DNA from: Ignavibacteria bacterium
Lineage (GTDB): Bacteria > Bacteroidota > Ignavibacteria > Ignavibacteriales > Ignavibacteriaceae
DNA length: 64,000 bases
Direction of reading: 5' to 3'
Assembly: GCA_030684555.1 (NCBI GenBank)
Contig: JAUXVN010000043.1
Span: 1 to 64,000, forward strand
Shown: positions 31,194-35,882 of the stretch, piece by piece
Layout of the letters: each line of letters starts with the position of its first letter
How positions within the stretch are numbered: the first letter of the stretch is position 1
Position numbers and translations under genes: made by a program
Notes under the pieces: model-generated
The model's database searches: none
What the model was told of the DNA's origin: nothing
What the model saw: only the letters and a program-made list of their open reading frames with translations

Positions 31194-33416
31194 TTAAACA
31201 CCGCCAATATTTATCATCGCTCCGATTACTACCATTCTTCTCCCGAAATAACTTTCTATATCCTCTCTTTTGGAATAATCAGGAGTATAAGTATAACCGA
31301 AAATATTATTTATGTTAAATATGTTTAGCCCTTCAATATAGGCTATAACCGGATAGTCGAATACCTGATCAAAGTAAGTTAGGCGAATATCGAGACGTTT
31401 ATAATCCGGATATCGCGCCGAATTAGTCAAGCCGTAAATCGGTTCAAACAAATTATTAGCGGCATTAAAAACCGAACCGTTAATCGGTGTGAATGGTCTT
31501 CCTGTAGCATATTTAGCATTCATACCAATCTGAAAGCTGTTGGTAATATTATATTTTGCAACAAGAGTAATATTATGAGTTATATCAAAAGAGCTGTTTA
31601 CATCTTTATCAAAGTCCATCCAATTACGTTTTGTGTCGATATATCCGTATGAAATCCATCCGTCAATTCCGGCGATATTTGATTTAAGAATAAGGTCAAT
31701 ACCGTTGGCAAAACCGAATCCGCTGTTATCAAAATTTACGAGACTGTTTTCCTTCGGTAAATCTTTATATTTCTTATGATACACTTCAACTCTGAATGAA
31801 TTGAAATCAGAAAAGTTTTTGTCGAATGATAAAATAAAATGCTCTGCATTCATTGCTCTTAAATTTGGATTGCCATCATCACTTCTAAATAATTTTGGGT
31901 CCGGGAGCTGATGATAAATTCCCCAGCCAAACCTTACTGAAGATGATTCATTTATTTTGTAAGCAATGGCAGCACGCGGGTCAATCCAATTTACTTTTAA
32001 TTGAGTAATAACATCATATCTCACTCCACCGGTAAATGAGACATCACTTAAACCAAAAATTGCACCGGATATAAGCTCGCTGTAAAATCCGAAACGACTG
32101 CCGGAAAATCCCGCATTAATAACCTGAATATTTCCTTCGGGACGAATGTCATACTCCTCTTGCGGAATTACACCCACGAAATTTGTATTTCGAAATTCAG
32201 CATCAATTCCGGCATGCAAACCATAAACCGGTGAGAGTGTAAATTCAAAATCATGTCGGGTTGAATATACTTTTTCGGTTTTTTCTAAATCAAGTGAGCC
32301 TAACCTCCAACTGTTTGAATAAGTATTATAAGCGACGCTGCTTTTAGTCATTATATTTTCTGTTAAAAGATTTGAGTGAGTTAGATTAAGAAAATAATTC
32401 TTTGTATTTCCGTTAAAGATACCATTATATTCAGCACGTTCTACCTTTACACCTTGTTCATCTTTTGAGGCAATACCAAAGAGTTTGAAACGTCCGGTAT
32501 TTGAATAAGAATAAACCAGACCTCCTGTAGCATTACCCGAAATTGGAGCAACAACCATTCTATCGTTTCCACCGTTTAACCAGAATATCGGTTTAGTAAA
32601 ACTTTGTCTCACATCAAGATAAGCCCCCAATTTATTGCTTATCAAAGGTAATTCGGTTGTCAAAGAAATATTAGCCATGGAAATACCGATTTGGTGTTTT
32701 GTGTTTTCGGTTTGATTTTTTGTTTCAATATCGAGTACGCCGGAGAGAGCGTTTCCGTATTTGGTTGAAAATCCACCGCTTGAGAAATACATTCCTTTCA
32801 CAACACTTTGACTCAGATTAGAAAAAAGTCCTCCGTATGCCGACTCAAAAGTAAACGGATGATAAAGTGCAGCACCGTCAATCATTGTTACCGTTTCTAT
32901 CGGATCTCCGCCGCGGACATAAAGTTCTGCACTTTCAGAAACCTGGGTTAGTCCCGGTAAAGTTTTTAATGCTTGATAAATATCTGCAGCACCGCCCGGA
33001 GTAGTGACAATATCAATCCTCGAAATAACTAATCCTTTTTCCTTTTCGGAACCGAATGAACTTCCGGTAACAACTAACTCTTTGAGCTTGATCGGAATTT
33101 CTTTCAATACTATTTTCAACTCAATTTTATCACCGTTAAGAATCAACTTCTTTTCCTGTTTTTCATAACCGACACTACTCGCCATAAGAATTACTTCCCC
33201 CCTTGCGGTAGTTCTGAAGAAAAAACTACCATCATCATCTGAAGTAGAACCTTCATTTTTATCAAGTAGAAAAATATTAACATAAGGAATCGGGTTTCCT
33301 GAACTATTTATTACAGTCCCTTCAATTATCGTCTTTTGCTGTGAGATGATTTGCATAGATGCTGAAAAAAAGAATAACAAAACAACAATAAATATTTTTG
33401 AGAGAGAAATTTTCAT
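31194..33416 (-). CDS. TonB-dependent outer-membrane receptor
   Basis: Start set at ATG 33416, which begins a signal peptide (MKISLSKIFIVVLLFFF) two bases after the stop of the TPR gene; the upstream extension of the frame lies inside that gene. 740 residues: CarboxypepD_reg-like domain (EGTVINSSGNPIPYVNIFL), plug (ISRIDIVTTPGGAADIYQAL, LYVRGGDPIETVTMIDGA), then a beta-barrel. The ligand is not evident. Translationally coupled to the TPR gene and under a palindromic operator shared with the regulator operon upstream. Confidence 0.85.
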   Translation of the reverse strand: MKISLSKIFIVVLLFFFSASMQIISQQKTIIEGTVINSSGNPIPYVNIFLLDKNEGSTSDDDGSFFFRTTARGEVILMASSVGYEKQEKKLILNGDKIELKIVLKEIPIKLKELVVTGSSFGSEKEKGLVISRIDIVTTPGGAADIYQALKTLPGLTQVSESAELYVRGGDPIETVTMIDGAALYHPFTFESAYGGLFSNLSQSVVKGMYFSSGGFSTKYGNALSGVLDIETKNQTENTKHQIGISMANISLTTELPLISNKLGAYLDVRQSFTKPIFWLNGGNDRMVVAPISGNATGGLVYSYSNTGRFKLFGIASKDEQGVKVERAEYNGIFNGNTKNYFLNLTHSNLLTENIMTKSSVAYNTYSNSWRLGSLDLEKTEKVYSTRHDFEFTLSPVYGLHAGIDAEFRNTNFVGVIPQEEYDIRPEGNIQVINAGFSGSRFGFYSELISGAIFGLSDVSFTGGVRYDVITQLKVNWIDPRAAIAYKINESSSVRFGWGIYHQLPDPKLFRSDDGNPNLRAMNAEHFILSFDKNFSDFNSFRVEVYHKKYKDLPKENSLVNFDNSGFGFANGIDLILKSNIAGIDGWISYGYIDTKRNWMDFDKDVNSSFDITHNITLVAKYNITNSFQIGMNAKYATGRPFTPINGSVFNAANNLFEPIYGLTNSARYPDYKRLDIRLTYFDQVFDYPVIAYIEGLNIFNINNIFGYTYTPDYSKREDIESYFGRRMVVIGAMINIGGV

Positions 33417-33418
33417 AT

Positions 33419-34204
33419 TTATTTTCCGTTCATTTTTTTCTGAAGATTTGGCAGAAGGTTCATTTTGACCCACATAAAATTTGGTTCTACATTCAAAGCT
33501 TTTTTGTAAGCGTATAGAGCAGTTTCATAATTCTCTAAAGCTGTGTTAACTCTGCCAAGCCATGCTAATGATTCTAAATATCCCCAATTTGGAGCAGTAG
33601 AATCAACAATTTCTTCACGCTCAAAAATGGAGATTGCTTTATTGAAATTTTTCATTGCATCTTCTTTGCTTCCACCAAACATTGAAGGAGTATTAAATTT
33701 CATAATCCCGCGGATTATATATGACCTTGGATTCTTTGGTTGTAGTTTTTGTGCATCATCAAGCAGATCGTGAACTGTGCCTGAAAGTGTTACCGCTGAG
33801 AAAGGGGAGTTTGCAATTTTCATCATGTAAATAGCGGCGAGTAAAGTTTTCCCTTCAGAAGAAAGAATTTTATCTGATGAAATTTGTTCCGCATGTTTTA
33901 CACTTTTTTCATAATACTTATCGAATAAATCCTCATTCCCTTTACTTAAGCTAATCTCAAGTAATCGATATTCGGTAAACGTAAGATGGTATAATGCAAT
34001 TTTATTTGAAGGCTCGTTTTTAAGCAGTGATTCAAAAGAATTTGCAGCTTGTTCAAACATCTCTCTATCGTAATACAAATTTGCTTTGATGGTTAATGCG
34101 ACAGCATCTTTTAATGTTTGTGTGGTTTCATCTTTACTTCCGGCTATGTTTAGTGAGACGAATATAAATGTGAAAAGAATTGTAACAGTGATTAAATGTT
34201 TCAT
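33419..34204 (-). CDS. Exported TPR-repeat protein
   Basis: 261 residues, signal peptide (LITVTILFTFIFVSLNIAGS) and several tetratricopeptide-like repeats (DREMFEQAANSFESLLKNEP; YIIRGIMKFNTPSMFGG; ENYETALYAYKKALNVEP). The FNTPSMFGGSKEDAMKNF segment is familiar from TPR proteins that precede TonB receptors. First gene of a two-gene operon with the receptor; presumably a periplasmic partner or scaffold. Confidence 0.75.
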   Translation of the reverse strand: MKHLITVTILFTFIFVSLNIAGSKDETTQTLKDAVALTIKANLYYDREMFEQAANSFESLLKNEPSNKIALYHLTFTEYRLLEISLSKGNEDLFDKYYEKSVKHAEQISSDKILSSEGKTLLAAIYMMKIANSPFSAVTLSGTVHDLLDDAQKLQPKNPRSYIIRGIMKFNTPSMFGGSKEDAMKNFNKAISIFEREEIVDSTAPNWGYLESLAWLGRVNTALENYETALYAYKKALNVEPNFMWVKMNLLPNLQKKMNGK

Positions 34205-34236
34205 AACGGATTCCTATTATTTGTTTATATGTAAAG

Positions 34237-34255
34237 TACTTTGAATAACAAAGTA
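34237..34255 (-). promoter_or_regulatory. Palindromic operator, site 1
   Basis: TACTTTG-AATAA-CAAAGTA, a perfect 7-bp inverted repeat, 33 bases upstream of the TPR-receptor operon. The same motif occurs upstream of the winged-helix regulator operon at 35182-35200. Likely the regulator's binding site. Confidence 0.65.
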
Positions 34256-34270
34256 ATTAAGCAAAAAAAA

Positions 34271-34567
34271 TCATTTTTTAATTAAGTTTTCAAGACTAAT
34301 GAGATATTGGTTAAACGCTGTTTTTCCGGTTTTGGTAAGAGTGTACATTGTTTTCGGTTTTCTGTCGATAAATTCCTTCTTTACAGAAATATATTCAGCC
34401 TCTTCGAGTTTTTTCAGATGGACACTCAAATTACCGTCGGTTGCTTTAACTTTTTCTTTTAGATAATTAAATTCAGCTTCTTCAACAGAGATGAGCAGAG
34501 CCATAACAGCAAGCCTTATTCTGGAATGAATAATTTCATCAAGAAGCTGATAATTAAAGTCGTTCAC
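34271..34567 (-). CDS. Winged-helix transcriptional regulator
   Basis: 98 residues, a single winged helix of the HTH_34/MarR-like kind: LLDEIIHSRIRLAVMALL, recognition region LKEKVKATDGNLSVHLKKLEE, wing and YTLTKTGKTAF. These compact regulators typically sit with a membrane protein gene, as here (its start overlaps the stop of 34567 by one base). I infer it represses its own operon and the receptor operon through the TACTTTG-N5-CAAAGTA sites. Confidence 0.85.
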   Translation of the reverse strand: MNDFNYQLLDEIIHSRIRLAVMALLISVEEAEFNYLKEKVKATDGNLSVHLKKLEEAEYISVKKEFIDRKPKTMYTLTKTGKTAFNQYLISLENLIKK

Positions 34568-35160
34568 TATTGAGCCTTCTCTTTTTTATACTTTTTATAA
34601 AGTAGAATTCCGGGAACAACTTGCAAAAAGATCATCATTAAACCCATCATCAGCATTGTGTACAATCCGGGATAGTAAAACATAATTGTTGCACCAACCC
34701 ACCACAATATTGCAATCCAGATCATCCATTTTTCATCATGAATATAGCTGGAAATAAAATATGCCATACCGAGTACTGTTGAAATAGCAGGTGATACGTA
34801 TATTCCGCCGAGCGCTCCTGCTGTTGTAGCAATAAAACCGAACATCGACATAGCTATTCCGGCAGACATCCAGATTGCACCGAGAAGTTTTCCGGCAAAT
34901 GTAGAAACACTTCTCTTTCTGCCCTTTGAATAATGCTCATAAAAAGTATAACTCCAACCAGAACCAATTAATACAATCCAAAGGTAAAGTGCATTTATTC
35001 CAAACCCCAGCAAAAAATTGAAATACATAAAGAACAACCCCAGTGAAACTAAAATGCCCCAATAAATGTAATCTTTGCCGTTACTTACAACCGTTGCACG
35101 GCTTTCTGACATCAATTTTCGAATGAACTGAAGTTCATCAAGAGCGGTTTCTTTATCCAT
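34567..35160 (-). CDS. Multi-pass membrane protein paired with the regulator
   Basis: 197 residues with about five to six membrane helices after a 25-residue soluble N-terminus (ALDELQFIRKLMSESRATV). No known transport motif. It is the first gene of the regulator operon. Similar membrane proteins accompany HTH_34-type regulators in Bacteroidota, so it may sense or transmit a membrane signal; the function is unknown. Confidence 0.65.
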   Translation of the reverse strand: MDKETALDELQFIRKLMSESRATVVSNGKDYIYWGILVSLGLFFMYFNFLLGFGINALYLWIVLIGSGWSYTFYEHYSKGRKRSVSTFAGKLLGAIWMSAGIAMSMFGFIATTAGALGGIYVSPAISTVLGMAYFISSYIHDEKWMIWIAILWWVGATIMFYYPGLYTMLMMGLMMIFLQVVPGILLYKKYKKEKAQ

Positions 35161-35181
35161 TTGAATATCCTTTTTATAAAG

Positions 35182-35200
35182 TACTTTGTTTTACAAAGCA
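35182..35200 (-). promoter_or_regulatory. Palindromic operator, site 2
   Basis: TACTTTG-TTTTA-CAAAGCA, matching site 1 in both arms except one base. It lies directly downstream of the -10 element of the promoter at 35201-35229 and so would cover the transcription start, the usual position for repression. Confidence 0.65.
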
Positions 35201-35229
35201 AACATAAAACAAAAATTGAATCTTGTCAA
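35201..35229 (-). promoter_or_regulatory. Promoter of the regulator operon
   Basis: On the minus strand TTGACA, 17 bases, TATGTT: a canonical sigma-70-like promoter. Transcription would start about 7 bases later, inside the palindromic operator. Confidence 0.55.
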
Positions 35230-35276: not shown

Positions 35277-35882
35277 TTACGAATCTTTATGATAATAAAT
35301 AAATGTTAGGACTTCACCAATATCATCATATTTCTCAATACCGGTCTCAATACAAATTATCTTTGGAAACATGATTTCGGTACAAGCAGATTCAGTCATT
35401 AAAATATATTCATTTTCTTTTACGGAATTTTTTAACAACCGATGAACAATAATTACATCAATTCCTGAAAGCTCAGTAAAACTCCCAATCTTAACAAGCT
35501 CAGCAAATCCCGAATGAACTATAACTTTAAGTTTCAGTGTTTCTATCGCAATACAAATATCACCGTCACAAAACACAGAATTTCTTAATTCGTTTATCTT
35601 CTGAGTGAAGACGTCAAAAAAAGTTATCAACCTCGAACCGATATTTTTTCTTAACATCTCCCACTCTGTATCGCCATCACCTTTAAGCGCAAAAAGGAAA
35701 ACAGCATCCCCCTCAATTTTAGCAACTTCAAGCGGGAGTTCTATATGCTTTATGATCGTGTTTATAAGTTCAATAATTATCTTATGACTTTTGGAGATTG
35801 TGTTTCGGTTTGCCAGCATAAACTTAGTATAGCCGCTGATATCGGCAATAAGTAGAATTACCTTGCTCTGATTAGTGTTCAT
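35277..35882 (-). CDS. DUF2652 protein (nucleotide-cyclase-like)
   Basis: 201 residues. Opening LLIADISGYTKFM is the hallmark of DUF2652, a family related to class III adenylyl/guanylyl cyclase domains; AKIEGDAVFLFA is the second metal-binding-like segment. Whether it makes a cyclic nucleotide is unproven, as several catalytic residues of true cyclases are not recognisable. Monocistronic. Confidence 0.75.
   Translation of the reverse strand: MNTNQSKVILLIADISGYTKFMLANRNTISKSHKIIIELINTIIKHIELPLEVAKIEGDAVFLFALKGDGDTEWEMLRKNIGSRLITFFDVFTQKINELRNSVFCDGDICIAIETLKLKVIVHSGFAELVKIGSFTELSGIDVIIVHRLLKNSVKENEYILMTESACTEIMFPKIICIETGIEKYDDIGEVLTFIYYHKDS

Follow-up and report, generated by a model that had tools for sequence, protein, structure and literature searches.

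Among described systems, the one closest to the locus reported here is the HAAS-PadR dyad, in which a HAAS-domain membrane protein is paired with a standalone PadR-like winged-helix protein (PMC11237479), as in LltR-Lmo0600 of Listeria (PMC6624303). The membrane protein is thought to relay a membrane signal to the regulator (PMC11237479, PMC6624303). Repressor sites within operons are also known. In the intergenic region of Chlamydia trpRBA, a YtgR site stops transcripts that originate at the upstream promoter (PMC6504234), and the block of read-through by LacI has been reviewed (PMC10310618). For the winged-helix family HTH_34 (PF13601), represented by the solved structure 1ub9 (PH1061 of Pyrococcus horikoshii), the literature searched yielded neither an operator nor a function. 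Queries with PF13601/HTH_34, PH1061, AAAGTACTTT and CreD control in Bacteroidetes found no description of the operator reported here, nor any mention of the accession PF13601 in the literature searched.

The locus analyzed here lies in a 64,000-nucleotide stretch of an Ignavibacteria genome (the window). In minus-strand order, it comprises a promoter, an upstream (UP) operator, the genes of a membrane protein (MEM) and an HTH_34 regulator (REG), a T-tract, a downstream (DN) operator, and the genes of a TPR protein and a TonB-dependent receptor. It resembles the HAAS-PadR dyad in that a small, standalone winged-helix regulator is encoded next to a protein with several membrane spans, the operon includes envelope genes and, as predicted here, the regulator controls its own expression. 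However, MEM-REG is not a member of that group, because MEM lacks a HAAS-related profile (no match to DUF1700, DUF1129 or DUF1048) and REG scores below the PadR cut-off (PF03551, 22.4 bits against 27). The HAAS-PadR membrane part is preceded by three helices with a GxP kink, whereas the MEM model has one helix, and a paired three-half-site operator has not been described for that dyad. By analogy, MEM-REG may well work like it. With YtgR, the locus shares a putative repressor site inside an operon, predicted here to stop transcripts that started ahead of the regulator gene, but YtgR is iron dependent, belongs to another family, acts on the operon of another regulator and has a second promoter behind its site. 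With 1ub9, REG shares fold and family, and for this family we now propose both an operator and a regulon. In our reading, which we hold to be likely, MEM and REG form an autorepressing pair that controls envelope genes through binding of REG to a three-half-site operator.

Genes and candidate operators of the locus

The original prediction described a palindrome in front of each of two adjacent minus-strand operons, and both copies are real and placed as claimed: TACTTTGAATAACAAAGTA at 34237-34255 is a perfect palindrome and TACTTTGTTTTACAAAGCA at 35182-35200 has one mismatch. They are spaced by 945 bp with the regulator gene between them, and each lies 5' of a gene. What the prediction overlooked, in reading the operator as two half-sites, is a third half-site, ACTTT, common to both copies (plus strand TAAAGTACTTTG-N5-CAAAG at 34232-34255 and 35177-35200). 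The putative operator is thus T-ACTTTG-N5-CAAAGT-ACTTT, and this extended version is the form conserved in other genomes. The UP operator (TGCTTTGTAAAACAAAGTACTTTA, 35177-35200, minus strand) has the promoter on one side and MEM on the other and is kept in 67 non-redundant loci; the DN operator (TACTTTGTTATTCAAAGTACTTTA, 34232-34255, minus strand) occupies the REG/TPR intergenic region, as it does in 54 non-redundant loci. Directly before the UP site, as predicted, stands TTGACA-N17-TATGTT (35201-35229, minus strand), a sigma-70-like promoter with 10 of 12 consensus matches whose -10 hexamer abuts the operator.

MEM (34567-35160, minus strand) encodes a 197-aa membrane protein, modeled by AlphaFold (pLDDT 86) as a single N-terminal helix (residues 3-23) ahead of six membrane helices. 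It belongs to no Pfam or NCBIfam family, and three diverse MEM relatives likewise lack a Pfam family. A Foldseek comparison of the model with the PDB returned no significant match; the best was the urea channel 3ux4 (E 0.1, TM 0.44), and since that match is insignificant we do not propose that MEM is a channel. REG (34271-34567, minus strand) shares 1 nt with the stop codon of MEM and encodes a 98-aa protein that matches PF13601 over residues 17-96 (110.5 bits, cut-off 27). Its AlphaFold model (pLDDT 93) shows the winged-helix fold of the closest solved structure, family member 1ub9 (TM-score 0.84, rmsd 1.2), and its recognition helix spans residues 44-56, beginning with Asp44.

Behind the REG stop, the T-tract TTTTTTTTG (34262-34270, minus strand) is followed by six bases (34261-34256) and the DN operator. 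The TPR gene (33419-34204, minus strand) encodes 261 aa with a signal-like N-terminus. For the TonB-dependent receptor gene (31194-33416, minus strand) the likely start is ATG 33416, 2 nt behind the TPR stop, which opens a signal-peptide-like sequence (MKISLSKIFI...); a start at GTG 33473, inside the TPR gene, was rejected. The receptor matches CarbopepD_reg_2 (61.5 bits), falls just under the cut-off for Plug PF07715 (22.0 against 23.9 bits) and far from that for SusC/RagA TIGR04056 (43.6 against 368), and its N-terminal 153 residues match PDB 9gbc, a TonB-linked receptor. Farther upstream, at 35277-35882 of the same strand, is a gene for a DUF2652 protein (PF10851, 95 bits), which is not a recurring neighbor of the module.

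A pattern search of the 4.34-Mb genome, one of the checks proposed with the original prediction, found exactly two copies of the palindrome with at most one mismatch, both at this locus. A first-order Markov model gives 0.035 exact copies and 1.7 copies with at most one mismatch per genome, and the count of one-mismatch copies alone is therefore as expected. The relaxed pattern is by itself unremarkable: with up to three mismatches the window holds 22 matches against 19.8 expected, i.e., background, and copies with two mismatches across the genome are likewise at background level. What was unexpected is that the only two such copies in the genome flank one regulator gene within less than a kilobase. 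Since the pattern search revealed no further site, the regulon in this genome is probably confined to this local pair.

Conservation of the sites and covariation with the regulator

Using an alignment of the regulator as query, we collected 80 named loci by REG protein sequence, from Ignavibacteria, other Bacteroidota and Alphaproteobacteria, and from one genome each of a Spirochaete, WOR-3 and Hydrogenedentota; the MEM sequence alone, used as query against the genome contigs, gave no match. In many of these loci the three-half-site element stands before MEM and often also behind REG, and it accompanies the regulator family as far as Flavobacteriia, Alphaproteobacteria and a Spirochaete. MEM is encoded in 15 of 97 related genomes, and several genera of two families share the arrangement [site]-MEM-REG-[site]-TPR-TonB. 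In Ignavibacteria the site pair, the regulator and the TPR-TonB genes are kept together, the motif being neither missing upstream of orthologous operons nor scattered at random. Two loci (L028 and L032) carry variant sites, ACTTTA...TAAAG, recognizable though missed by the strict pattern. Neighbors at 106 non-redundant loci include 52 MEM-type, 33 TPR and 31 TonB relatives, and in most loci MEM runs directly into REG, either overlapping or abutting it. When only loci found by protein search were considered, 72 of 89 non-redundant Asp-type regulators had a site, and the relaxed motif occurred away from the regulator twice in 356 kb. No site was detected at the other 17, including several of Bacteroidota family f26, whose regulators share the TDGNLS helix, yet mostly come without a detected site.

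Some loci depart from the common layout. One (L027:8780-9830) keeps MEM-REG, both perfect operators and the T-tract; its downstream site seems orphaned, because the TPR-TonB genes are missing and the following gene is convergent. At another (L035:9409-9964, genome G080), an in-frame TAA apparently breaks MEM, and REG, the sites, TPR and TonB persist. Four Bacteroidota HTH_34 proteins (L235, L238, L250 and L255) lie in long open frames of 273 to 348 aa, possibly as fusions to a second domain.

A census of 395 Bacteroidota genomes located the exact 22-bp core, ACTTTG-N5-CAAAGTACTTT, in 79 of them, at 133 distinct sites against 0.6 expected and none for the reversed control. Ninety-nine of them fall at an HTH_34 regulator or MEM locus (44 right behind the regulator, 45 before MEM-REG, 10 otherwise near the regulator), and 34 lie away from any HTH_34 gene. 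HTH_34 matches as such were present in 13 of 14 control genomes. The distant sites would suit a motif that belongs to another regulator and lies near HTH_34 genes through chance or shared ancestry, an explanation that we consider very improbable given the 99 sites at HTH_34 or MEM genes, an association that crosses phyla, and the half-site change that goes with a change in the recognition helix (see below). Many of the regulator-distant sites precede membrane-protein genes, as judged by sequence. The genes found there are CreD-like, DUF4153-like, DoxX-like, COQ4-like, of a family of about 190 residues, or of a lipoprotein-like hydrolase family; among representatives behind regulators, Pfam identified CreD (506.7 bits), DUF4153 (116 bits) and Coq4 (36 bits). 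Judging from the genes at these sites, regulators of this type seem to act on envelope genes across many hosts. In one Bacteroidota group (L148, L175, L176, L184, L186 and L190), a conserved site with T-tract precedes a gene of about 224 aa, lipoprotein-like or cysteine-hydrolase-like, with the regulator far off.

Half-site letters vary with the regulator. In the AlphaFold model, residue 44 falls in the opening turn of the recognition helix, and regulators with Lys44 (TKGNLS) carry GGTTTA-N5-YAAACC-RGTTTA in unchanged geometry, one of the five (L090) with the inverted pair only. All five K-type loci have GGTTT-type sites and none has ACTTT; among 153 Asp-type loci, many of them retrieved by motif, 130 have ACTTT and none GGTTT. 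Across 146 genomes, the GGTTT pattern was found in four (control, 0), in three of them before known K-type regulators (G027, G065 and G072); the fourth is G502. The K type is a single clade (support 100/100), and other residues changed on that branch too. The Asp/Lys association with the half-site therefore counts once, as what its phylogeny indicates to be one evolutionary switch, and for the same reason a Fisher test of the association was not taken as proof.

This covariation also bears on whether the inverted repeats might work as RNA hairpins (attenuators) rather than as protein-bound DNA. The repeat could fold as a 7-bp stem, but it has no Rfam match, changes at the inner pair break the pairing (A with C in the ACTTTA...CAAAG variants), no terminator-like hairpin was found at the locus, and the half-site letters track the recognition helix of the regulator, all of which makes an RNA element scarcely credible here.

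Promoter and T-tract contexts of the two sites

The two operators differ in what surrounds them. Most Ignavibacteria loci have TTGACA ahead of the upstream site, generally at -29 or -30, and the promoters there have 9 to 12 of 12 consensus matches in most orthologues. Of the upstream sites of the census, which come mostly from other Bacteroidota, 23 of 45 contain TAnnTTTG, brought to completion by the first half-site; in Flavobacterium psychrophilum, this sequence has been reported as the sigma-A -7 box (PMC9723704). The upstream site thus covers the promoter start, and both promoter positions fit repression of initiation. If REG were instead an activator and the sites its boxes, the lack of a recognizable promoter at the downstream site would make sense as a poor promoter in need of help. 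Nonetheless, activator boxes usually lie upstream of the -35 element, the UP site sits at the -10/start region, a location in which a bound protein normally keeps polymerase out, and the promoters before upstream sites are already near consensus, both in the window and in most orthologues. We consider activation unlikely.

Across the 54 downstream sites, no conserved -35/-10 element or TAnnTTTG was found in register, and the best promoter scores are scattered. What these sites have is a T-tract at -13 to -8, with two positions invariably T (100% in 54 loci). The tract keeps register with the operator and not with the stop codon: it does not shift although the distance from stop to operator varies from 14 to 32 nt (97 in one locus). 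In the census, a T-tract lies ahead of 40 of 44 downstream sites, against 5 of 41 upstream sites; among 83 ordinary same-strand gaps of these loci, 7 contain one. Regulator-distant sites with a T-tract number 10 with a same-strand upstream gene and 2 without; for those lacking a T-tract the figures are 6 and 16, respectively, all of these counts being partly dependent as related sites are included. That T-tracts accompany same-strand upstream genes suggests a role against read-through.

In seven relatives (L059, L063, L065, L068, L070, L075 and L078), REG and TonB are separated by a pterin-4a-carbinolamine dehydratase gene (PF01329, assigned from the L063 copy), and only the upstream site was detected, with no downstream site. 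In this subgroup, except for L078, the upstream operator consists of four half-sites, AAAGCACTTT-N7-AAAGTACTTT. Because these relatives keep their TonB genes in the same run with no downstream site detected, transcription started at the upstream promoter must be able to reach them.

The original prediction of two adjacent operons therefore stands as to a site in front of each gene pair but is weakened as to their separateness: since the downstream site has a fixed T-tract and no recognizable promoter, the four genes may be transcribed together, as a single unit interrupted by an internal block. The DN site could alternatively govern an ordinary TPR-TonB promoter, with the T-tract as its upstream A/T element. 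A weak TTCAAA-N18-AATAAT (34245-34216, 9 of 12 matches) overlaps the DN site, and some regulator-distant T-tract sites have a start codon at a similar distance. Against such a promoter stand the missing conserved element in register at 54 sites and the dehydratase relatives, in which TonB stays in the same run with no DN site detected. We regard a separate promoter as rather less likely than not.

A predicted switch for envelope genes

In the arrangement that we favor, autorepression by the MEM-REG pair, a REG dimer would bind the inverted repeat of T-ACTTTG-N5-CAAAGT-ACTTT, and the third half-site would provide an extra contact or accommodate a second dimer. At the UP site, REG would sit over the -10/start region and repress its own operon. 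At the DN site it would lower TPR-TonB expression, either by standing in the way of polymerase that started at the UP promoter or by masking a weak promoter. The conserved co-occurrence of site and regulator across genomes supports the earlier proposals that REG is the ligand of the sites and that the TonB receptor is co-controlled, and from the placement of the sites we infer repression rather than activation. By analogy with the HAAS-PadR dyad, control of the regulator by MEM is most likely: the co-translated six-helix protein would sense an envelope condition and control REG, and the TPR and TonB genes would be induced under that condition.

A bolder version can be offered only tentatively, and we are inclined to doubt it as a whole. 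In this version, the T-tract and the promoterless DN operator together would constitute a built-in protein-dependent terminator, one protein would govern both initiation and read-through in an operon design widespread in Bacteroidota, and Asp or Lys at residue 44 would be a code for ACTTT or GGTTT.

To conclude, our analysis provides a predicted operator, a predicted regulon and a candidate recognition residue for the widespread HTH_34 family. The pairing of sites, one at a promoter and the other at a T-tract, poses a precise question on the control of elongation. Orphan envelope genes, among them a TonB receptor with its TPR protein, CreD, DUF4153 and others, would thereby be placed under one type of switch.
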